The notes beneath the pieces were generated by a model. That model saw nothing but the letters and a program-made list of their open reading frames with translations, was not told where the DNA came from and did no database searches. From positions 1-31,892 of the IMG/VR virus record IMGVR_UViG_3300046683_000089: a DNA stretch of 31,892 nucleotides, one strand, 5' to 3'. The stretch's first letter is position 1, and every line of letters begins with the position of its first letter. Shown here piece by piece: positions 128 through 31,892 of the stretch. A program made the position numbers and the translations under genes. This DNA comes from a virus.

Positions 128-1338
128 GCTTGACCGCTGAACTCAAAGCCATCGACGCGCATCTCGTACGCCTCAAGGCCCTCGAGGCGACGGCTGTGAT
201 GACGAAGGCGACGCCGATCACGGCGGCGACGCCGGAACAAGCCAGTCTTCAGCGCAGCGGCGTGCCGATCATCTCGGTCAAGGCCAACGTCGCGCCGGGC
301 ACCGCGTTCATCCGCTACTGCCAGGCGCTCGCGGTCTCGCGCGGGTCGACGATGCAGGCCGTCGAGTATGCGAAACGCTGGACCGATTCGACGCCGGAAG
401 TCGAACTCGTCCTCAAGGCCGCCGTCGCGGCCGGGACGACGACTGATGCGAGTTGGGCCGGTCCACTCGCCCCGATGAAACCGCTGACCGACGAGTTCCT
501 CGCGCTGCTGCGCCCCGCGACGATTCTCGGCAAGGTGCCCGGGTTCGTACGCGTGCCGTTCAACGTGTCGGTCGCCAGTCAGACCGGCGGCGGCACGTAT
601 CAGTGGGTCGGCCAGGGCGCGCCCAAGCCGGTGGGCAAACTGGCGTTCGCGACCATCACGCTCGGGGTCACCAAGTGCGCCGGGATCATCGTGATCACCG
701 AGGAGCTCGCGCGCACCTCGACGCCGTCGGCCGAGGAGGTCATCCGGCGCGACATGGTGGCCGGGATCGCCGCCTACCTCGATCAGCAATTCATCGACCC
801 GGCGGTGGCCGCGGTCGCGGGCGTCGCGCCCGGCTCGGTGACCAACGGCGTCACCCCCATTACCACGGCTGGCGCCACGCCGGCCAACGCGCGGACCGAC
901 GTCGCGGCGATGGCGAACGCCATGACCGCGCTGAATATCTCGACGGCCGGCGCCGTGCTCGTGCTGTCGGAGACCAACGCGCTCGCGTTCACCAACGCGC
1001 TGAACCCGCTCGGCCAGCCGTTGTTCCCGGCGATGTCGCAGCAGGGCGGGACCATCATGGGCTACCAGGCGATCACCTCGCAGGTCGCCGGCACAACGGT
1101 CGCGTTGATTCAGCCCAACCAGGTGCTCTATGCCGATGACGGCGGGGTGACGATCGACGTCAGCCGTGAAGCGTCGGTGCAGATGGATACGGCGCTCGAC
1201 AACCCGCCGATCGCGACGACGGTGTTGACCTCGCTCTGGCAGAACAACCTCGTCGGGCTCCGCGCGGAACGCTTTATCAATTGGAAAAAAGCGCGCACGG
1301 GGTGCGTCCAGTACACCGTCGCGACCTACTCGGCGTAG
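1..1338 (+). CDS. Major capsid part of a prohead protease-capsid fusion (C-terminal portion, cut by window start)
   Basis: This is the HK97-fold major capsid region, open from base 1 without a start codon because the gene begins at 31208 at the other end of the circle. Bases 1-127 repeat 31766-31892 in the same frame, giving one 631-residue protein (186 codons before the junction, 445 after). The first ~70 residues here are charged and helical, like the delta/scaffold domain of HK97-type capsid proteins; the rest has the composition and Ala/Gly/Thr-rich C-terminal core of the family, with tail-proximal hydrophobic strands. An internal ATG at 31751 could give a separate capsid chain, but its ribosome site is weak. 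A start at base 55 is only an internal Met of the delta region. Capsid assignment rests on fusion to a clear protease and on the neighbouring portal. Confidence 0.88.
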   Translation: MNEQITSFETSRAGKHARMTAMMTKSADAGATLDQAETDEYDGLTAELKAIDAHLVRLKALEATAVMTKATPITAATPEQASLQRSGVPIISVKANVAPGTAFIRYCQALAVSRGSTMQAVEYAKRWTDSTPEVELVLKAAVAAGTTTDASWAGPLAPMKPLTDEFLALLRPATILGKVPGFVRVPFNVSVASQTGGGTYQWVGQGAPKPVGKLAFATITLGVTKCAGIIVITEELARTSTPSAEEVIRRDMVAGIAAYLDQQFIDPAVAAVAGVAPGSVTNGVTPITTAGATPANARTDVAAMANAMTALNISTAGAVLVLSETNALAFTNALNPLGQPLFPAMSQQGGTIMGYQAITSQVAGTTVALIQPNQVLYADDGGVTIDVSREASVQMDTALDNPPIATTVLTSLWQNNLVGLRAERFINWKKARTGCVQYTVATYSA

Positions 1339-3410: not shown

Positions 3411-3907
3411 CCCAGGACGAGATCGCGGCCATCGTCGAGGGGATCGCCCCCGTCGTACGCGACTACGTGCAGCGCGCGCTCGGCGAGGTCGCCACACATG
3501 TGCAGGTGCTCGACGTCCAGCTCGCGGGCCTCGTCACCGCCACGACCGAGATCGGCCTGATGCGCGAACGTCTCGCCGTGGTCGAGACGCGCCCGCCAAC
3601 GCCGGGACCGGCCGGCCAGGATGGCGCGCCGGGACCCGCGGGCGCGGATGGCACGCCCGGCCTCGAGTGGTGCGGCGTCTACGTCGACAGCCAACCGTAC
3701 GCGCGCGGCCAGCTCGTGACCTGGGGCGGGTCGACGTGGCATTGCAACGAGCCGACGACCACGAAACCCGGCGAGGGCTCGAAAGCGTGGTCGCTGATGG
3801 TCAAACGTGGGCGCGACGGCAAGGACGGCAAGGACGGCGGGCCCGGCCCCATCGGCCCGGCCGGCAAGGACTGGCAACAGGTCTACGACGACACGAGGCG
3901 GCGGTGA
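3407..3907 (+). CDS. Collagen-like protein with carbohydrate-binding-type module
   Basis: A 166-residue protein whose start overlaps the portal stop (ATGA). Residues ~1-60 are a helical coiled-coil-like segment. Residues ~65-87 contain Gly-X-Y triplets (GPAGQDGAPGPAGADG). Residues ~88-130 resemble a CBM5/12 chitin-binding-type module (WCGVYVDSQPYARGQLVTW then GGSTWHCN), with the usual aromatic spacing. A second Gly-X-Y run (GRDGKDGKDGGPGPIGPAGK) follows. Collagen-like stalks with tip modules are typical of phage fibres. Placement directly after the portal, far from the tail-fibre genes, suggests a head fibre or neck appendage (inference). Confidence 0.75.
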   Translation: MTQDEIAAIVEGIAPVVRDYVQRALGEVATHVQVLDVQLAGLVTATTEIGLMRERLAVVETRPPTPGPAGQDGAPGPAGADGTPGLEWCGVYVDSQPYARGQLVTWGGSTWHCNEPTTTKPGEGSKAWSLMVKRGRDGKDGKDGGPGPIGPAGKDWQQVYDDTRRR

Positions 3908-4236
3908 GCACGTTCGTCACCCTCGACCAGGTCAAGGCGCGGTTACGCATCACGTCGACCGCCGATGACGTCGACGTGCAGGCGATGGCCGACCAGGCCG
4001 AGGCGCACATCGTCGGCTGGTGCAGTACGACGCCGCGATCCAAGGCCGTCGTCGAGACGTGGACCGACGCGACGACGGTGCCGCTCGTCGTCATCGCCGC
4101 CATTCTGGTGCAGACCGGCGAGCTGTATCGGTTCCGCGGCGATGAAGTGGACGGGCCGCCGCGCGAGGCCGGCGAGGAACTCGGCGTCCAGGTCCGCGAA
4201 CTGTTGCGCGCGTATCACGACCCGGGGATCGGATGA
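3904..4236 (+). CDS. Head-tail connector protein (gp6-like adaptor)
   Basis: A 110-residue protein from GTG at 3904, overlapping the previous stop by four bases. It begins STFVTLDQVKARLRI, the 'Lee.K.hLRi...ddd' opening of the gp6-like/Ad1 head-tail connector family. Helical segments follow, with AILVQTGELYRFRGD near the C-terminus (the 'aalllva.lyenRe' helix). It would bind under the portal and extend the DNA channel. It sits in the expected order before the head-closure gene. Confidence 0.8.
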   Translation: MSTFVTLDQVKARLRITSTADDVDVQAMADQAEAHIVGWCSTTPRSKAVVETWTDATTVPLVVIAAILVQTGELYRFRGDEVDGPPREAGEELGVQVRELLRAYHDPGIG

Positions 4237-4586
4237 GCCCGACCGTCACGTCCTACATCTCGAGCGGCCAGCGGCTGCACCAGGGCCTGTTCCAGCGGCC
4301 CGGGCCGCCCGTGCCCGACGGGACCGGCTGGGTCGAGTCGTGGATCGATCTGCCGCCGCCCGCGTTCGCGCGCATCACCCCGGCGTCGCAAGCCTCGCTC
4401 GAGCAGATCACCGCCGGCACCGTACTGTCGATGGCGACGCACATCGTGACCGTGCCGTACCGCGAGGGCCTGTCGACCAAGGCGCGCTTTCTCTACGACG
4501 GGCGCAGTCTGTCGGTCCTCGGCATCTTCGACTACGAAGAGCGGCACGTGCAATTGCACCTCGTGTGTGCGGAGGTGGTCGAGTGA
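4233..4586 (+). CDS. Head-tail joining / head closure protein
   Basis: A 117-residue protein, ATGA-coupled to the connector. The C-terminal half carries the family signature: SMATHIVTVPYREGLSTKAR, FLYDGRSLSVLGIFDYEE, then RHVQLHLVCAEV, matching the pattern 'H.v.iry...l....rv.y.gr.y.I..v.d...r...l.l.c.ev' of Phage_H_T_join/SPP1 gp16-type stoppers. It would cap the connector and hold DNA in the packaged head before the tail joins. Confidence 0.85.
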   Translation: MSPTVTSYISSGQRLHQGLFQRPGPPVPDGTGWVESWIDLPPPAFARITPASQASLEQITAGTVLSMATHIVTVPYREGLSTKARFLYDGRSLSVLGIFDYEERHVQLHLVCAEVVE

Positions 4587-5017
4587 GCGGGCCGGGCGGG
4601 CAGACGGTGTGGTTCAAGTGGGACGGGATCACCGAACTCGTCGACCAGTTCGCGACGCTCGCGCGCGATCTCACCACGGACGCGGCGCCCGAGGTCGAGG
4701 CCGCGGCACAAGCGGCCAAGAGCGCGATCTACGCCGGGTATCCGTCGCGCACGGGCGATCTCAAGAACCACCTGGCGGTCGTGATGCACACGGACGCCAC
4801 GCGCACCGAGGCGGTCGTGATCAATACCTCGCCGCACGCCGCCGTCTTCGAGCGCGGCAGCCAGGCGCGCCATATCGCGATCGGTGCGAACCGCGGGTCG
4901 ATGCCGGCCAATCCGTTGTTCTCCGCGACGATGATCCGCTGGCGCCGCGGCCTGTATACCGGGCCGATCCCGCGCGTGCTCGAGCAGATGGGCCTGACGG
5001 TCAATGGCACTGCTTAA
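4583..5017 (+). CDS. HK97 gp10-like tail completion protein
   Basis: A 144-residue protein from GTG 4583, overlapping the previous stop. The N-terminus GITELVDQFATLARDL followed by a helix, then YPSRTGDLKNHLAVVM and a C-terminal ARHIAIGANRGSMPANPLF segment, match the HK97-gp10/minor tail protein pattern (helix, 'yP..tG.L..s', 'g...hPA.Pf'). It sits in the usual slot between head closure and tail terminator. The role in neck or tail-tip completion is taken from the family. Confidence 0.78.
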   Translation: MSGPGGQTVWFKWDGITELVDQFATLARDLTTDAAPEVEAAAQAAKSAIYAGYPSRTGDLKNHLAVVMHTDATRTEAVVINTSPHAAVFERGSQARHIAIGANRGSMPANPLFSATMIRWRRGLYTGPIPRVLEQMGLTVNGTA

Positions 5018-5441
5018 CGTCGCCACCGTCACGATCGCGGTCCTGCAGGTGCTCCAGGCGGACGCGCCGTTACGCCTGCTGATGCCCGACGGCGTGTTTT
5101 TCGCCGAGGCGCGACCGGGCTCGACGCGGTTCGTGATCGTGTCGCTCGTGTCCTCGGTCGAGGCGCCGATGTTCGGCGGGCCCGCCTACAAGGACACGGT
5201 CTATCTGGTCGAAGCGCGCGCGCTCACCACGGCGGCGTCGAGCACCGACGTCGAGAACGCCTTCGCGCGCATCACGACGTTGCTGACCGATGCCCAACTG
5301 ACGATCACGGACTACGGCGCGATGCTCACGCAATTCGAGGAAGAACTCGAGACGGTCGAAGTCGACGACATCGATCCGTCGATTCGCTGGAACCGCTGCG
5401 GCGGCCATTTGCACGTGATGGTCGCCCCGCTCGTCGGCTAA
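5004..5441 (+). CDS. Tail terminator / minor tail protein
   Basis: A 145-residue protein overlapping the previous gene by 14 bases. Short helices at the N-terminus (LLNVATVTIAVLQVLQADAP) precede VFFAEARPGSTRFVIVSLV and a C-terminal strand pair; this matches DUF3168/gpU-like tail-terminator proteins that stop tube polymerisation and join the head. ENAFARITTLLTDAQL matches the central helix. Position immediately before the tail tube gene supports this. Divergence is substantial, so the call leans on order. Confidence 0.7.
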   Translation: MALLNVATVTIAVLQVLQADAPLRLLMPDGVFFAEARPGSTRFVIVSLVSSVEAPMFGGPAYKDTVYLVEARALTTAASSTDVENAFARITTLLTDAQLTITDYGAMLTQFEEELETVEVDDIDPSIRWNRCGGHLHVMVAPLVG

Positions 5442-5464
5442 CCCACGGCATTCGAGGGACACGT

Positions 5465-5875
5465 ATGGCAGCCATCGATCGTATTCACGGCAAAAGCGGG
5501 AAGATCATGATGGACCCGACCGGGGGCGTGACCACGGTCCTGGTCGCCTCCCTCGACAAGTGGGATCTGGACATGGCGAAAGACCAGGTCAAAGTCACCT
5601 GTTTTGGGGACACGAACCAGGTCTACGTGGTCGGGTTGCCGGACCTGAAGGGCACGTTCGGCGGCATGTACGATCCGGTCGATGGGCTGGTGATCTTCCA
5701 GGTGATTTTCGGCACGGTCGCGCCGACCCTGGAGTTGTACCCGACCAGCCTCGGCGTGACGCCGCCGAAGTTCGCCGGGAAGGGCCTGCTCGACGGCAAG
5801 ATCTCGTGCCCCGCCAATGGCGCGGTGTCCATCAGCGGCGCGTTCGTGGCCTCGGGCCCGTGGACGCATCCGTAA
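5465..5875 (+). CDS. Major tail tube protein
   Basis: A 136-residue protein with start ATG 5465, preceded by GAGGGACACGT, which supplies a ribosome site. The sequence is beta-rich: GKIMMDPTGG, VASLDKWDLDMAKDQVKVTC (a 'W.ld...d..dvT.fgd' motif common in small siphovirus tube proteins), GMYDPVDGLVIFQ, then a strand-rich end with SISGAFVASGPW. Size and order (after terminator, before chaperone and tape measure) fit the tube subunit. Confidence 0.82.
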   Translation: MAAIDRIHGKSGKIMMDPTGGVTTVLVASLDKWDLDMAKDQVKVTCFGDTNQVYVVGLPDLKGTFGGMYDPVDGLVIFQVIFGTVAPTLELYPTSLGVTPPKFAGKGLLDGKISCPANGAVSISGAFVASGPWTHP

Positions 5876-17001: not shown

Positions 17002-17276
17002 CACGCCGAGGGAATGTGCTGGCCTTGACTGAGCGGCGGGACCAGGTCGCGACCGCCGCCGCCGCGGCGTTCGATGACGTGCGGCTGACCGTGGCCGAAG
17101 CGGCGACCGAAGCCAAAGTCAGCGAACATACGATCCGCCGCGCCTATGTGCATGGCCATTTGCACATTCAGCGGTTCGGCATCGGTCAACGATCGTTGCG
17201 CATCAAGCGGAGCGATCTCCTGCAATGGCTCGAGGCCGGTGGCAACACCGCGCCGCGCGCCGGAAAGTCTCGATGA
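16998..17276 (+). CDS. Excisionase-like helix-turn-helix protein
   Basis: A 92-residue protein, ATGA-coupled to the Cro-like gene. Residues ~30-78 match the HTH_17/MerR-type excisionase domain: LTVAEAATEAKVSEHTIRRA, YVHGHLHIQRFGIGQRSLRI, KRSDLLQWLEA. This DNA-binding wing arrangement is usual for Xis/RDF proteins. Its stop overlaps the integrase start, which supports a role in directing integrase toward excision. Confidence 0.78.
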   Translation: MTRRGNVLALTERRDQVATAAAAAFDDVRLTVAEAATEAKVSEHTIRRAYVHGHLHIQRFGIGQRSLRIKRSDLLQWLEAGGNTAPRAGKSR

Positions 17277-18520
17277 GCGTCCGGAAGAAGTGCGGCTGTC
17301 AGTACGCGGATCATCGCTGCGCGCATGCCTGGCTCAGTGAGGTCATGCACGCGGGCGTGCGACGGCGCATCAATATCGATCAATACGCGATCGAGCGGGG
17401 CGCGCGGGAGGCGCACATTGTCGCCAAGCGCGACGCGCTCCAATGGGAGGCGCGGATCAAAATGGACCTGGCGCAGGGACTGGACCCGACGCACCCGCCC
17501 GGCGTGGTGGCAGAATCGGTGGAGAGCATCGCGCGCGCCTTAGAGGATTACGAGGCGGTCGAAGTGCCGAAGCTGCGGGTCCAGGGGCCGCCGCGCAGTG
17601 AGATCCGGACGATCCGCGCGTACTTCGGCGGCCGGGCGCTCCGCGAGCTCGAGCGCGAAGGCGCTGGCCTGGCGTTCATGTCGGCGCTGCGGGAGGGGTG
17701 GCGCCCGCCGCATCCGCGCACCGGGGAGGCGCAGGAACCCCTCGAGGACGGGCGCGGCCCGGCCGGCGTGAATCGCATCATGCAACGCCTGCGGCACTTC
17801 ATCAACTGGTGCCGCTATCAGCAGCCGCAGCGGTTGACGCGGACGCCGTTTCATCGCTACGGGATTCAGATCAAGTTGAGCGAGGAAGTGCAACGGACGC
17901 GGCGCCTGCACGCGGGCGAGGAGGCGGCGCTGCTGGCGGCCTGCGAGGCGATCAACACCCTGGATCACAAGTACGCGGGGCCGGCCATCAAACGACGCAT
18001 TCTCGGCACACTCTGGCTCGGCGCGCGTGGCAGCGAGCTCGATCGTGTCCAGATCGCCGACGTCAACTTCCGCACGTGGGATGTCCTATTGCGCAAGGGC
18101 AAGAGTGCGCCGCGGGCGGTGTGGCTCGACGACCGGAGTCCGTTGCGGGCGCTCCTCGAGCAGCGACGGTTTCTGAAGCCGGGCCAGGCGGTCTTCGGCG
18201 ACGAGGCGGGCGCGGTCTACAACGCGCGCGCGGCCTGGGAAACGGTGCTGCTCCTGGCCCACGACAAGATCACCGTCGCCGGCACGGGCCGGACCTCCGA
18301 CCAGGACGCGATCCACTTCGCCGAGATCGATCTGCACTTTCACGATCTGCGGCGGGAGTGTGCGTCGCGGTGGTGGGAACAGAAGATCGACCTCCTCAAG
18401 ATTTCGCGCTGGTTGGGCCACGCGGATTTTCAGATGACGCAACGCTATCTGCACCTGACCGCCGAGGCCTTCGGCGGCCGGGACATGGAGGAGGCGCTCA
18501 CGGGGAAACGGCGGCTGTGA
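17273..18520 (+). CDS. int: Tyrosine recombinase, phage integrase
   Basis: A 415-residue protein. ATG 17273 overlaps the Xis stop. The catalytic residues are visible: Arg252 in LGARGSELDRV, His357 and Arg360 in HDLRRECASRWW, His383 in WLGHADFQ, and nucleophile Tyr392 in QRYLHL. The N-terminal Cys/His cluster (RKKCGCQYADHRCAHAW) may bind metal or help arm binding; a core-binding domain spans residues ~85-200. The attP core lies about 110 bases after the stop, the usual placement. Mediates site-specific integration at a host tRNA gene. Confidence 0.93.
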   Translation: MSVRKKCGCQYADHRCAHAWLSEVMHAGVRRRINIDQYAIERGAREAHIVAKRDALQWEARIKMDLAQGLDPTHPPGVVAESVESIARALEDYEAVEVPKLRVQGPPRSEIRTIRAYFGGRALRELEREGAGLAFMSALREGWRPPHPRTGEAQEPLEDGRGPAGVNRIMQRLRHFINWCRYQQPQRLTRTPFHRYGIQIKLSEEVQRTRRLHAGEEAALLAACEAINTLDHKYAGPAIKRRILGTLWLGARGSELDRVQIADVNFRTWDVLLRKGKSAPRAVWLDDRSPLRALLEQRRFLKPGQAVFGDEAGAVYNARAAWETVLLLAHDKITVAGTGRTSDQDAIHFAEIDLHFHDLRRECASRWWEQKIDLLKISRWLGHADFQMTQRYLHLTAEAFGGRDMEEALTGKRRL

Positions 18521-18814
18521 TCCGGTTACGCCCAGATTGCGCCTTTTTTGCGCCTAGTTGCAGTTTCGAGGGGTCGCGTGGCGAGCGAGTGAAAGGCGGG
18601 AAGTGATGGCTGATATGGGGTTTATGGGTGGTGGCGAGGGACAGAATCGAACTGTCGACACTACGATTTTCAGTCGAGCAGAAGCCCTTTCCCAGGCTTG
18701 CCCTGAGTCGCCCTTAGGCACTTTTCCTCAGCAAATTTCCAAGACGGCCTCGCGGGGCTACGCGGGGCTAATCCCGGTTTCCGATCCGATTACGCCCACG
18801 ACTTTGAGGCCGCG
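18521..18814. other. Integration region around attP with candidate arm sites
   Basis: The 294-base gap after the integrase holds the tRNA-like core and repeats that look like integrase arm sites: TCCGGTTACGCCCA (18521-18534) recurs as TCCGATTACGCCCA (18785-18798), flanking the core by about 95 and 110 bases; and a perfect tandem CGCGGGGCTA pair lies at 18751-18770. No gene is evident. Confidence 0.65.
18629..18676 (-). other. attP: attP core: 3' half of a tRNA-Phe(GAA) gene
   Basis: On the minus strand this segment reads as the 3' half of a tRNA: anticodon loop CTGAAAA with anticodon GAA, stem TCGTA, variable loop, T-arm GACAG-TTCGATT-CTGTC, acceptor CCTCGCC and ACCA. The matching 5' half is absent (the 5' anticodon stem breaks after three pairs), so it is not a functional tRNA gene. 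Integrating here would rebuild the 3' end of a host tRNA-Phe. Confidence 0.85.
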
Positions 18815-27580: not shown

Positions 27581-27735
27581 TGCATATGCACCGAGGCTAT
27601 ACATGCCCAAGTCGCCAAGTCCCTAAGTCGTTGATAGACCGCCACTACCGGGGGGTAGGTAATTGATACACCCAGGGGGAGTCGGGAAACCCTCCGGGCC
27701 GGACTTTGTCACGAACTAAACGTGTCTTTGCGAAA
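27581..27735. other. Non-coding gap before terminase, candidate packaging (cos/pac) site
   Basis: Starts with the 10-bp palindrome TGCATATGCA (27581-27590). Then three tandem 8-mers, CCAAGTCG CCAAGTCC CTAAGTCG (27607-27630), and a small stem CTACC-GGGG-GGTAG (27645-27658). Palindromes plus short tandem repeats beside HNH and TerL suit a cleavage or terminase-binding site, but nothing in the sequence fixes the cut. Confidence 0.4.
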
Positions 27736-29544
27736 ATGCGCCTAAAACGCCGCAAGATTGGACGGCCGCGGGTGTCGGATGCCGAGAAGGCGAAGCGGGG
27801 CTATTTGCACCCGGGTCGCCGGCGGTCTCGGCGGCGGTCGCCAGGGCGTCAACAACCGGTCCTGGCGGGGTCAGGACGCGATTACGTGGCGGTCGCGCGC
27901 GAGTACGTGGCCGATGTCCTCAGCGGCCGGCAGACGGCCTGCCAGTGGGTGCGGCGGGCCTGTGAGCGCCACGACCGCGACACGGTGCGTGCGGCGACCG
28001 ATCCGGTCTGGCCGTTCACCTGGTCGGATGCCCACGCGGTCGAGGCGTGCGCCTTTATTGAGCAGCTACCGCACGTCGAGGGCCGGTGGCGCACTGAGAC
28101 GATTCACCTCGAGGCGTGCCAGGTGTTTTTCGTGTGTGCACTGTTCGGGTGGCGCCAGCGCGCCAACCTCATGCAGCGGCGCTTTACGCTCGTATATTTC
28201 GAGGTCGGGCGCAAGGCGGCCAAGTCGACGCTGATGGCGGCGATCGCGCTCTTCCACTTGCTGAAGGAGCAGGAAGTCGGCGCCTCGGTCGTCTGTGGCG
28301 CGACGACGGGCAGCCAAGCGCGGATCGTGTTCGTGATCGCCGCCAAGATGGTGCAACGGTCACCCTTGCTCCGGCAGCTCGGCGCGCGGGCCTTCACCAA
28401 CGCCATCATCACGGCGGACGGATCGATCAAGCCCGTCAATGCCAAGGCGTCGACTCAGGACGGGCTGAACCCGAGCTGCATCGTGCTCGACGAGTCGCAC
28501 GCGCAAAAATTTGGCTTGCACGACGTGCTCAAGAGCGCGCAGGGCGCGCGCGCGAACCCGCTGATGCTCTGCCCGACGACGGCCGGGTATGACCTGCTCT
28601 CGGTCGGCTACGCGTTGCGGACGACGCTGACCAAGGTGCTGCAGCAGGTGTTCGAGGCGGATCACTTCCTCGGGATCATTTACACGCTCGACGACGCCGA
28701 CGACTGGCGCGACGCGCGCGTCTGGGTCAAGGCCAACCCGATGCTCGGCGTGACGCCGACGCTCGAGTGGGTGACGTCCTACTGCCACGACGCGCAGCAG
28801 ACGCCCGGGCTCGAGGGGGAGTTCCGCGTCAAGATCTGCTCGCAATGGTTGCAGTCGGCGCGGACCTGGCTGTCGATGACGGACTGGGACGCGTGCGCCG
28901 AGCCGTCGTTGCGCCTCGAGGCCTTCGCCGGCGCCAAGTGCTGGATGGGCGTCGACCTGGCGCGCCGCGAGGATATTGCGGCGGTCGCGTTGCTCTTCGA
29001 GCGCGCGGACGTGCTCTATGCGTTTGTGAAGTTCTATCTGCCGCGGGACGTCGTCGCGTCGCGGGCGCGCACGGTGCCGGAGTATCTCGCCTGGGCGAAG
29101 AGCGGGATTCTCGAGCTGACCGACGGCGATTTCATCGACCAGCGGCGGATCGAGCAGGACATCCGCGACTGGTGCCGGGTGTTTCAGGTCGCGGCGGTGC
29201 GCTTCGATCAGTGGGATTCGCCGATTATGGTCTCGAACCTCCATGACGCCGGCATCCCGGCGGCCATCCTCACGAAGGACCGCAAGAGTCTGACCGCGCC
29301 GGCGCGCGAGCTCGAGGCACGGCTGCGACGGCGCCGGTTTCGGCACGACGGCAACTCGTGTCTCAAATGGATGGCGAGCAACACCGTGGTCACGCGCGGC
29401 CAGGACGACAGCTTGTGGCCGCGGAAAGAGCACGAAGACTCGCCGAACAAGATCGACGGCATCGACGCGATCCTGCAGGGATTGGCGCCGCTGGTGACAC
29501 CGGGCGCGGCGCCGCCGAGCTATTCGATGGTTGTATTCGGTTAA
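27736..29544 (+). CDS. terL: Terminase large subunit (ATPase and nuclease)
   Basis: A 602-residue protein from ATG 27736 (an in-frame TTG at 27706 would add ten residues; neither has a good ribosome site). Walker A is EVGRKAAKST (156-165), the deviant form of this family, and Walker B IVLDESH (Asp252, Glu253). Nuclease-domain acids: Asp407 in MGVDLARRED, Asp491 in VRFDQWDSP, Asp574/577 in KIDGIDAIL. Family-typical opening RDYVAVAREYVADVLSG is preceded by ~45 extra basic residues with a GRPR motif. Packages phage DNA into proheads through the portal. No small subunit was recognised. Confidence 0.93.
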   Translation: MRLKRRKIGRPRVSDAEKAKRGYLHPGRRRSRRRSPGRQQPVLAGSGRDYVAVAREYVADVLSGRQTACQWVRRACERHDRDTVRAATDPVWPFTWSDAHAVEACAFIEQLPHVEGRWRTETIHLEACQVFFVCALFGWRQRANLMQRRFTLVYFEVGRKAAKSTLMAAIALFHLLKEQEVGASVVCGATTGSQARIVFVIAAKMVQRSPLLRQLGARAFTNAIITADGSIKPVNAKASTQDGLNPSCIVLDESHAQKFGLHDVLKSAQGARANPLMLCPTTAGYDLLSVGYALRTTLTKVLQQVFEADHFLGIIYTLDDADDWRDARVWVKANPMLGVTPTLEWVTSYCHDAQQTPGLEGEFRVKICSQWLQSARTWLSMTDWDACAEPSLRLEAFAGAKCWMGVDLARREDIAAVALLFERADVLYAFVKFYLPRDVVASRARTVPEYLAWAKSGILELTDGDFIDQRRIEQDIRDWCRVFQVAAVRFDQWDSPIMVSNLHDAGIPAAILTKDRKSLTAPARELEARLRRRRFRHDGNSCLKWMASNTVVTRGQDDSLWPRKEHEDSPNKIDGIDAILQGLAPLVTPGAAPPSYSMVVFG

Positions 29545-29561: not shown

Positions 29562-30293
29562 ATGGCTAGGGCGAAGGAGACACCCCAAGACACCTCGACG
29601 ACGAAAACACGGGCCTTACCACCGTTATGGACGCACTACCGCGTGACGTGGACCTTTCTCACGCGCCTCTGTGCATCGGTGCCGGCCGATCCCGACATGA
29701 TCCGCAAATGGATCGAGACCCGGGAACCGCGTGTCAAGCCGGCGGGCGCGCTGTCGATCGAAGAGATCAACGAGGAAGTGCTCGCGAGCATCGAACGCGG
29801 CGAAGGCGAACCGGATCAGAGTTACTCCATGCTCGTGTTTCAACGGCACGCGGGTGGGCTCGTCGAGCGGTACGGCACGGTCAAAGCCCACGCGAAGGAC
29901 TGCGCGCGGATCTTGTCGTCGCAGTACATCGGGAAAATTGAAGGCGAGAAAGCCTTCAGCTCGCGCATTACCAACGGCCTGTACCCCGATGCGGCGCAGT
30001 ACTGGATTCCGATCTGCCGCGAGAACGGCGACCCGGTGCGCCAGGCGGACGGGGCCTTCGACAAGGCGATTCACGTCTACGTGCACGGCCGCGGGCAGAT
30101 GAACGCCTTGAAGCGGTTCGAGTACATCGAGCCGCCTTCGCAGATGACGTTCACCGTGAAAGTGCTGGGCCGGTCCGTGTCGGAAACCGATTTACATCAC
30201 TTGTTTGAGTATGGAGGGGTGCATGGCTACGCAGGCGAAAGAGGCGACGGCGAAGGGCGCTACAGCTACACCATTGAACGAGTCGAAGCTTAG
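29562..30293 (+). CDS. Unknown conserved-looking phage protein (243 aa)
   Basis: ATG 29562 follows AAAGGAGG, one of the best ribosome sites in the window; the frame upstream is a shadow of TerL. Segments: YRVTWTFLTRLCASVPADPD, MIRKWIETREPRVKPAGALS, EEINEEVLASIERGEGEPDQ, and an end FEYGGVHGYAGERGDGEGRY. No enzyme motif recognised. Lies between terminase and the repeat array, so packaging or capsid roles are possible. Confidence 0.75.
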   Translation: MARAKETPQDTSTTKTRALPPLWTHYRVTWTFLTRLCASVPADPDMIRKWIETREPRVKPAGALSIEEINEEVLASIERGEGEPDQSYSMLVFQRHAGGLVERYGTVKAHAKDCARILSSQYIGKIEGEKAFSSRITNGLYPDAAQYWIPICRENGDPVRQADGAFDKAIHVYVHGRGQMNALKRFEYIEPPSQMTFTVKVLGRSVSETDLHHLFEYGGVHGYAGERGDGEGRYSYTIERVEA

Positions 30294-30591
30294 ACCGAAC
30301 GCGCCCAAAGTGCGGACGGCGACGGCCATCGTCGAGAAGCATGAACAGATCCTCGATGCGCTCGAGCGCGAGACGATCACCGGAAAAATTGCGGAGCAGA
30401 TGGGCCAGCAGCTCAAGGGGATCACGGGGATAGCCAGGTTGGAGATGCAGTTCTGGAACACCGTGATCAAGTTCGGGCGCAAGGCGCCCGTCCCGCGGTC
30501 GGCGCTGATGCGGAGCGTACTCGGCTTGCCGGAAGCGATCTCGCCGACCGATGGTGAGGCGGTGCGGTCGATGTTGCCCGACGCGAGGTGA
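30223..30591 (+). CDS. Unknown protein before the repeat array (122 aa)
   Basis: ATG 30223 with GGAGGGG upstream is preferred over the in-frame start at 30205. Overlaps the upstream gene by 71 bases. Alternating Ala/Thr/Lys N-terminus, then helices TATAIVEKHEQILDALERET and IARLEMQFWNTVIKFGRKAP. The TGA stop is the first three bases of the first repeat box. A small-terminase role is conceivable from position, but no HTH is visible. Confidence 0.65.
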   Translation: MATQAKEATAKGATATPLNESKLRPNAPKVRTATAIVEKHEQILDALERETITGKIAEQMGQQLKGITGIARLEMQFWNTVIKFGRKAPVPRSALMRSVLGLPEAISPTDGEAVRSMLPDAR

Positions 30592-30962
30592 CGCCGAGCA
30601 CTGCAGTGTAGTGTCCTGGCTTGTCCTGCGCTGTGGTGGTGTGTCGTGAAGTGCCGTCGAGTTGTGCCGTGATGTGCCTTGTCGTGCGATGCCGTGCCCT
30701 GAGCTGAAGTGACGTGAAATGACGCCGAGTGGTGAGCTGTCGTGCAGTGAGCTGGCGTGGCTGTGAAGTGGCCTGGCGTGACGTCGAGGTTTGTCGTGTT
30801 CCGATTTGTGGTGGTGTGTCGTGTCGTGTTCTGACGTCGAGGTGTGATCTGGGCTGGTCTGACGGGGCCGTGTTGTGGTGTGACGTGACGTCGAGCAGTG
30901 GTGTGGCGTGTCGTGGTGTGGTCGGATGTGCCGTGGGGTGGCGTGACGTCGAGACCTGACAG
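30589..30962 (+). repeat. Pentamer array: six units of (TGNNN)n bounded by seven TGACGTCGAG-like boxes
   Basis: Boxes start at 30589 (TGACGCCGAG), 30652 (TGCCGTCGAG), 30720 (TGACGCCGAG), 30779, 30832, 30886 and 30944 (all TGACGTCGAG); spacings 63, 68, 59, 53, 54, 58. After each box come three free bases, then a run of pentamers nearly all beginning TG (mostly GTGNN phase), 8-11 per unit. The few exceptions are CGATT, GGATG and one-base slips in units 3 and 5. The pattern is strongly G/T-rich on the plus strand and not a multiple of three, so it is non-coding; the long minus-strand readings across it are open only because CNNCA repeats rarely form stops. Confidence 0.9.
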
Positions 30963-30968
30963 GTGCCG

Positions 30969-31151
30969 ATGAACAAACCTCCAGACGATCCGCCGGGGAA
31001 ACGGGGGCGCCCGCGCGTGGCGGAAGCGGGCTCCTCCGTTTCGACGTGGGTGAAACAGAGCGAGCATGATGCCCTGATTCGCCTTGCGGAACAACGCGAG
31101 ACGACCGTGTCCTCGCTCGTCCGCCAGTTGTTAAAACTGCGTATCCCTTAA
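30969..31151 (+). CDS. Ribbon-helix-helix DNA-binding protein with AT-hook-like motif
   Basis: A 60-residue protein from ATG 30969 (GTG 30963 also in frame). KRGRPRV (~11-17) is an AT-hook-like core. Residues ~23-58 form a ribbon-helix-helix: strand SSVSTWVKQSEHDALIRLAE, then QRETTVSSLVRQLLKLRI, as in CopG/Arc-type proteins, which dimerise and bind repeated operators through the strand pair. It begins directly after the seventh repeat box, so the array is its natural candidate target (inference). Confidence 0.82.
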   Translation: MNKPPDDPPGKRGRPRVAEAGSSVSTWVKQSEHDALIRLAEQRETTVSSLVRQLLKLRIP

Positions 31152-31207: not shown

Positions 31208-31892
31208 ATGCTGAACCGCGCGTACGCCGTGCTCGAAGTTCGGTCGGTGAACGACACGACCCGGGTGATCGGCGGCATTGCATCGACGCCCGAACCCGAT
31301 CGCATGGGCGACGTGGTCGAACCGGCCGGTATTTCATTCCTGAATCCAGTGCCGCTGTTGCTCCATCACAACATGGAGAAACCGGTCGGGACCGTCACGT
31401 TCCAGCCCCCGACGGCCGATGGCCTGGTCTTCGAGGCCACGCTCCCGACCATCAACGAGCCTGGCGCCGTGCGCGATCGCGTCGAGGAAGCCTGGCAGAG
31501 CATCAAGGCCGGCCTCTTCGCGGGCGTCTCGATCGGGTTCCTGTCTCGCGAAAAAGCGTTTAACAAAGCGACCAACGGGTTCCGCTTTCTCAAAACCGAA
31601 ATTTACGAACTGTCGCTGGTCACCGTGCCGGCCAACGGCCGCACAACGATCGCGATGATCAAATCGCTCGACCTGGCCGCGCCTGGCCGTCATCCGTCCC
31701 GCGACAGGGACACGCTCCCAATTGTGCGCGTCGACAAGGACGCGCGCCCCATGGAACAGAAAACCATCAACGAACAGATCACGAGTTTCGAGACCAGCCG
31801 CGCCGGCAAGCACGCGCGGATGACGGCGATGATGACCAAGTCGGCCGACGCCGGCGCGACGCTCGACCAGGCCGAGACGGACGAATACGACG
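31208..31892 (+). CDS. HK97-family prohead protease, N-terminal part of protease-capsid fusion (continues at base 1)
   Basis: Peptidase U35/S78-type maturation protease that would trim capsid delta domains and itself during prohead maturation. The start ATG at 31208 gives MLNRAYAVLEVRSVNDTTRV. The catalytic His lies in LLLHHNMEKPVG (His54 most likely) and the nucleophile Ser in GVSIGF (Ser108), both in family-typical context. The frame has no stop up to the window end and, through the 127-base repeat, runs into the capsid at base 128. A Pro/Arg/Asp-rich linker (about residues 160-181) separates the two parts and is a likely cleavage zone. Protease-capsid fusions are known in some phages but are less common than separate genes. 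A small stem-loop (31177-31202) lies just upstream. Confidence 0.9.
   Translation, partial: MLNRAYAVLEVRSVNDTTRVIGGIASTPEPDRMGDVVEPAGISFLNPVPLLLHHNMEKPVGTVTFQPPTADGLVFEATLPTINEPGAVRDRVEEAWQSIKAGLFAGVSIGFLSREKAFNKATNGFRFLKTEIYELSLVTVPANGRTTIAMIKSLDLAAPGRHPSRDRDTLPIVRVDKDARPMEQKTINEQITSFETSRAGKHARMTAMMTKSADAGATLDQAETDEYD
31766..31892. repeat. 127-bp exact terminal repeat, right copy
   Basis: Right-hand copy of bases 1-127. Removing it leaves a circle of 31,765 bp and restores the intact protease-capsid gene. Confidence 0.95.

Follow-up and report, generated by a model that had tools for sequence, protein, structure and literature searches.

What might a phage gain from a stretch of DNA in which pentamers beginning with TG follow one another, punctuated by recurring boxes? 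Positions 30589-30962 (plus strand) of the IMG/VR virus record IMGVR_UViG_3300046683_000089 raise this question: here, six units lie between seven CGAG boxes. We analysed the record over its full 31,892 nucleotides (hereafter the window), which form a circular phage genome of 66% G+C. In all probability, the array is a guide-RNA precursor that supplies several guides to a phage-borne system of the VIPR (Viral Interference Programmable Repeat) type, so far reported only in a 2026 preprint (bioRxiv 2026.04.26.720920, PMC13142463). As described there, a phage RAMP protein uses guides in which GGY alternates with NN and one target base is skipped per NN, a rule demonstrated both in vitro and in vivo (PMC13142463).

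Period, phase and grammar of the array

The boxes start at positions 30589, 30652, 30720, 30779, 30832, 30886 and 30944 (spacings of 63, 68, 59, 53, 54 and 58), and all seven boxes and six units are where a preliminary description, made from the letters alone, had located them. The upstream accessory gene ends within the first box, its TGA stop codon being the start of that box. Lag-5 autocorrelation of TG in excess of shuffled sequence, also expected from that description, is real: 49 pairs were observed as compared to 13.4 ± 3.3 in dinucleotide-preserving shuffles (z = 10.8). The same shuffles revealed excesses at lag 10 (z = 8.1) and lag 15 (z = 6.8) and a depletion at lags 4, 6 and 9. Units 1, 2, 4 and 6, whose spacings equal 3 modulo 5, hold the five-base phase from one box to the next; units 3 (30728-30783) and 5 (30840-30890) contain an internal frame slip and are possibly damaged.

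Array loci of other phages, retrieved first with a pattern of box plus a few TG pentamers and then with a looser one lacking fixed box letters, mostly keep this phase where spacers differ, a point that the description had proposed to check: across 47 loci, 386 of 509 box distances (76%) equal 3 modulo 5, against 20% by chance. In the 2233 pentamers of in-phase units, T (80%) and C (14%) dominate the first position and G (97%) the second; positions 3 and 4 are near uniform, and the fifth is G in 45%. The resulting grammar reads AG-NN-N (YG-NN-g)n YG-NN-G, then NCG, then AG and onwards. Two details of the earlier account did not survive this comparison. The 'three free bases' past CGAG belong to the first repeat, AGNNN, and its first two N read like all others. 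The palindrome GACGTC is not a general feature either, since other genomes use TGACGGCGAG, TGTAGCCGAG, TGAAGCCGAG or TGATGCCGAG; box letters 3-6 vary between genomes and are nearly uniform inside any one of them.

A target code with one skipped base

To read the array, we took the NN dinucleotides between successive boxes as a guide and matched them to DNA outside arrays at skips of 0-3 bases, with shuffled guides as controls. The natural guides collected numbered 385. The DNA searched was enlarged stepwise, first by whole contigs and terminase relatives and then by capsid relatives, finally comprising 9.1 Mb on both strands. Three guides carry the result. A guide from contig L195 matches, at 22 of 22 positions and skip 1, CAT GGC TAC GCA GGC GAA CGC AGC GAC GGG GAA in the RAMP gene (vipr) of contig L009, where this stretch encodes the glycine loop HGYAGERSDGE. 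A guide from L053 is likewise complete (22/22, skip 1) against the protease-capsid gene of L353, and both contigs stem from the same IMG sample, 3300037119. In the window itself, guide 6 (30894-30948, plus strand, in phase; CA GT GC TC GT GT AT CC GG GC AC) reaches 21/22 at skip 1 in L474, L475, L486, L489 and L490; several dozen further contigs score 20/22. These relatives share ancestry and are counted as one site rather than as many independent events. This match covers the capsid codons V-A-[P/A]-G-T-T-T-D-A-T, on the non-coding strand.

For none of the three guides did any of 600 shuffles attain the real score in the 9.1 Mb, and at skips 0, 2 and 3 the same guides reached at most 17-18 of 22. 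NN read with skips of 0, 2 or 3 gave no excess, and the contiguous reading (skip 0) no target signal. We also tried pentamers with all their three N taken as informative and rejected this version, there being no excess over shuffled triplets. The skipped base was the third codon (wobble) position in five of five coding matches examined. As far as sequence can tell, the guide dinucleotides match two positions of every three in the target DNA, passing over the wobble base, and guide 6 fits the capsid gene in VIPR-less relatives of this phage, the phage's own capsid gene fitting less well.

These matches bear on two readings in which the variable bases carry no message. The preliminary description had offered an iteron-like origin, a partition or packaging site, or an operator array. 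On such readings, protein would contact the DNA at a TG every half turn while NNN drifts. A strict 5-bp period, strand asymmetry, a location flanked by terminase and capsid genes, and the small ribbon-helix-helix (RHH) gene just downstream would all suit such a site. However, drifting NNN would not give matches of 22/22, 22/22 and 21/22 under one skip rule; any of these functions leaves the matches to capsid and vipr genes at a 1-nt skip unexplained. Moreover, array and RAMP gene keep company across unrelated contigs, and relatives that have no array still carry the RHH gene at this junction. We therefore regard a protein-binding DNA array as very improbable. About equally improbable is an RNA-binding track, on which the RAMP protein would occupy every YG in a regulatory or decoy role and NN would read no target. 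The RAMP fold and the fixed YG agree with it, as does the shortage of targets, most guides having none in the DNA searched; the three strong matches confined to skip 1, their wobble alignment and the same-sample pairing of L053 with L353 do not. A transcript-level binding track had been among the first suggestions as well, and its direction was right; its point, namely variable NN reading target DNA, had not been foreseen.

A RAMP protein, its small partner and the array as one module

Immediately upstream of the array lie two plus-strand genes. The vipr gene (29562-30293) starts with an ATG following an AGGAGG site and encodes a 243-aa RAMP protein with the C-terminal glycine loop HGYAGERGDGEGRY; its end is overlapped by a small accessory gene (30223-30591, start inferred), which resembles vap and encodes 122 aa. 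In an AlphaFold (AF2) model of pLDDT 85, the RAMP protein is predicted to adopt a Csm3/Cas7-like RAMP fold: all 50 PDB matches listed by Foldseek were Csm, Cmr or type VII Cas7-type chains of CRISPR complexes, with E 1e-6 for matches to Csm and type VII Cas7 complexes, and the BFVD returned a siphovirus 'Cas system-associated RAMP superfamily protein' (3.6e-13). Family members measure ~205-270 aa and share the C-terminal loop HG..xER..GEGRY, the glycine loop being almost invariant across 32 homologues. NCBIfam signals were weak (Csm4/Cas6, with Csm4 found weakly in 9 of the 32 members, best E 0.012), and no curated family covers the RAMP or the accessory protein above threshold. The accessory model consists of two long helices (pLDDT 71), for which the fold search gave no match below E 3. 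Distant RAMP homologues also occur in Hydrogenobaculum phage 1 (L493, E 2e-6) and Microcystis phage Mae-JY09 (L494, E 8e-11).

Pattern scans yielded ~40 array loci in phage contigs plus one in a Dehalococcoidia metagenome-assembled genome (MAG), most of them carrying the RAMP gene and often also the gene for a small helical protein. Conversely, a protein-only search of viral contigs gave 57 loci, in most of which an array adjoins the RAMP gene; arrays were weak or missing at L246, L262 (where the contig stops 218 bases past the gene), L270, L279 and L289-L291. Because searches for the array grammar and for the RAMP protein retrieve largely the same phage contigs, RAMP gene and array form one module, which by sequence unites RAMP gene, small helical accessory gene and array in dozens of phage contigs. 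Arrays hold 3-23 boxes, with guides packed head to tail. The joint takes yet another form at L265-L269, where the box is ..CGAATTCGAG or TGAAGTCGAG; L195 carries three arrays within 6 kb, around its vipr and accessory genes; and the MAG locus (L217:101-349 on contig DIFA01000026.1), where array and RAMP gene occur together, may belong to a prophage or to a phage binned with the MAG. A scan of GTDB genomes produced mostly chance matches and one real array, and a general scan of viral contigs for TGNNN runs mostly unrelated repeats.

The protein also narrows the choice among known systems. The preliminary description had likened the array to targets of TRAP (trp RNA-binding attenuation protein), with which it would share periodic triplet contacts on RNA. 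However, no TRAP-like protein was found nearby, the neighbouring protein has the predicted RAMP fold, and the spacer bases here bear information. Class 1 CRISPR RAMPs (Csm3, type VII Cas7) are closer in fold, glycine loop and the expected periodic grip on a guide RNA, but work with a period of 6 and five bases read, as opposed to a period of 5 and two read here (compare PMC13142463). TIGR-Tas resembles the present locus as a phage-linked, non-CRISPR guide array; in its published description it does not figure as a RAMP system (PMC12045711).

Could the locus nonetheless be a remnant or an unusual CRISPR array? Besides the fold, one might cite the box NCGAGNNN, whose 8 nt equal the length of the 5' tags of type III crRNAs. 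In contrast to class 1 CRISPR, however, there is no CRISPR repeat here: identical direct repeats with contiguous spacers were not found, the boxes being degenerate, and contiguous target matches were likewise lacking. No other cas gene was noticed nearby; neither cas1/cas2 nor a multi-gene effector occurs among the array's neighbour genes, the open reading frames (ORFs) of the genome having been searched only in part. We give this explanation almost no credence, less than any other considered.

That no element with this grammar had been described, as initially stated, is almost right, the closest being VIPR with its other fixed motif (PMC13142463). Seven VIPR types are published, type II from Escherichia phage SUSP1 and a Pseudomonas fulva prophage, and 'a related consensus' and 'staggered arrays' are mentioned for other types (PMC13142463). 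We re-found the GGYNN pentamer arrays of SUSP1 at 27616-29226 of KT454805. As in the preprint's account of VIPR, a single phage RAMP gene and a small accessory gene make up a minimal locus—here in the order vipr, accessory gene, array, similarly in many phage contigs—and, judging by fold and loop, a RAMP protein with an RRM-type core and a glycine-rich loop is encoded beside the guides. The tandem pentamers in which a fixed motif alternates with hypervariable NN, the one skipped base per NN (here at skip 1 only) at the wobble position, and targets in rival phages and other VIPR systems also recur. Differences concern the fixed motif ((g)YG rather than GGY), the CGAG boxes that separate guides in head-to-tail arrays with an NCG/AG joint, and the accessory protein, which here is helical and of 80-130 aa. 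The invariant structured 3' tail that ends each type II guide is not found, and the short joint leaves no room for it; the array is thus not type II as characterised in the preprint.

Several observations weigh against a VIPR-type guide precursor. No significant match links the RAMP profile to the RAMP candidate of SUSP1 (hhalign probability 3%; hmmsearch E 0.8), which is why kinship with VIPR is argued from fold, locus layout and code. Among the window's guides, guide 6 alone has a convincing target; even there no site reaches 22/22, and guide 6 includes a pentamer that begins with GG. The DNA searched held none for the in-phase, plus-strand guides 1 (30597-30656; CA CA TA TC GC TC CG TG GT TC AA CC), 2 (30660-30724; TT CC AT CC TC CG CC CC AG AA AC AA AC) and 4 (30787-30836; GT TC TT AT TG GT TC TC TT AC). 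In addition, exact 10-dinucleotide scans of IMG/VR returned no match for guides 1 and 2, nor did a search of 39 related contigs with up to three mismatches for guide 1. The phase slips of units 3 and 5 and the absence of a conserved 3' tail on the units count on the same side. Finally, pooled guides show just a modest skip-1 excess, which we attribute to most targets being absent from the DNA searched.

A cassette between terminase and capsid genes, and self copies of guide targets

The window encodes terminase, portal, capsid, tape measure, tail fibre and integrase genes, and its ends share an exact terminal repeat of 127 bp (1-127 = 31766-31892), which marks the contig as circular; the protease-capsid gene spans its ends. 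A tRNA-Phe gene (18629-18702, minus strand), ~110 bases past the integrase gene (17225-18520, plus strand), is a possible attachment site or remnant. The array had initially been placed between packaging and capsid genes. Terminase and capsid genes do flank the locus, but the vipr and accessory genes intervene upstream and the small RHH gene (30969-31151) follows directly downstream. In 97 related loci, some of which share one contig, the terminase-capsid gap is mostly 200-600 bp, tblastn found no vipr at the junction, and 16 carry RHH homologues, mostly at this junction. In the window, the gap measures ~1.66 kb and holds vipr, accessory gene and array, then the RHH gene. The first three form a cassette inserted between terminase and capsid genes. 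L202, a terminase relative of the window, has an array near 3511, upstream and not downstream of its terminase (TerL, 3752-5515). Promoter and terminator scans gave nothing above chance, and Rfam no match.

If rivals are addressed, what of the carrier's own copies? In the window, the capsid-gene counterpart of the guide 6 target (423-455, minus strand; motif VAAGTTTDAS) agrees at 19/22, with an extra mismatch at DAS, where most relatives have DAT. The vipr gene of L195 likewise fits its guide at 19/22: it uses AGA for Arg and TCC for Ser rather than CGC and AGC, leaving the amino acids unchanged. In G004, two guides match the own capsid gene, each at 19/22 and at sites 60 bases apart. Self-target counts over 299 guides showed no general excess, a few cases standing out. 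The three mismatches in all four self cases suggest self-avoidance; alternatively, the guides may have arisen against diverged homologues, their self similarity being incidental. That self copies still reach 19/22 in four cases might also mean that guides are aimed at their own genes, for autoregulation of vipr or capsid, and not at rivals. We consider this unlikely, albeit less so than the other alternatives: other phages match better (L195, the window), the G004 self copies carry three mismatches, and those of L195 are synonymous codon-box switches that look like avoidance.

For the favoured guide-RNA precursor, a mechanism can be proposed. RAMP proteins would line up on the transcript, one per pentamer, gripping the fixed YG (partly also position 5) with NN turned outward; a grip each 5 nt at YG is very likely. 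At the NCGAG box one guide would end and another begin; the precursor would probably be cut, or a filament begun, there. When two phages share a cell, the complex would bind the rival's capsid gene and block its transcription, repression being more likely than cleavage because no nuclease was seen within the module. In outline, we infer that the array is transcribed and then processed at its CGAG joints, that each pentamer takes up one protein, that the complex binds DNA and represses, that the accessory protein has a role and that the carrier benefits against sibling phages. More tentatively, and at somewhat less than even odds, the CGAG-box arrays may constitute a separate, undescribed VIPR branch, with (g)YG/NN guides, a tailless multi-guide precursor and a helical accessory protein of its own; its cassette would silence capsid genes of sibling phages, and its carrier would recode its own capsid or vipr codons, including purely synonymous Arg/Ser switches, against self-targeting.

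Working from raw phage DNA, we have independently arrived at the non-contiguous code of VIPR, here in dense guide arrays that have another fixed motif and natural targets. These targets are of biological interest in themselves: besides the capsid genes of sibling phages they include a rival's vipr gene, hit at its glycine loop, and self copies that carry three mismatches. Synonymous switches between Arg or Ser codon boxes are among the few silent changes visible to a wobble-skipping guide, and the recoding in L195 offers a clean test of phage escape from its own guides, while the arrays supply several hundred natural guides for learning which mismatches matter.
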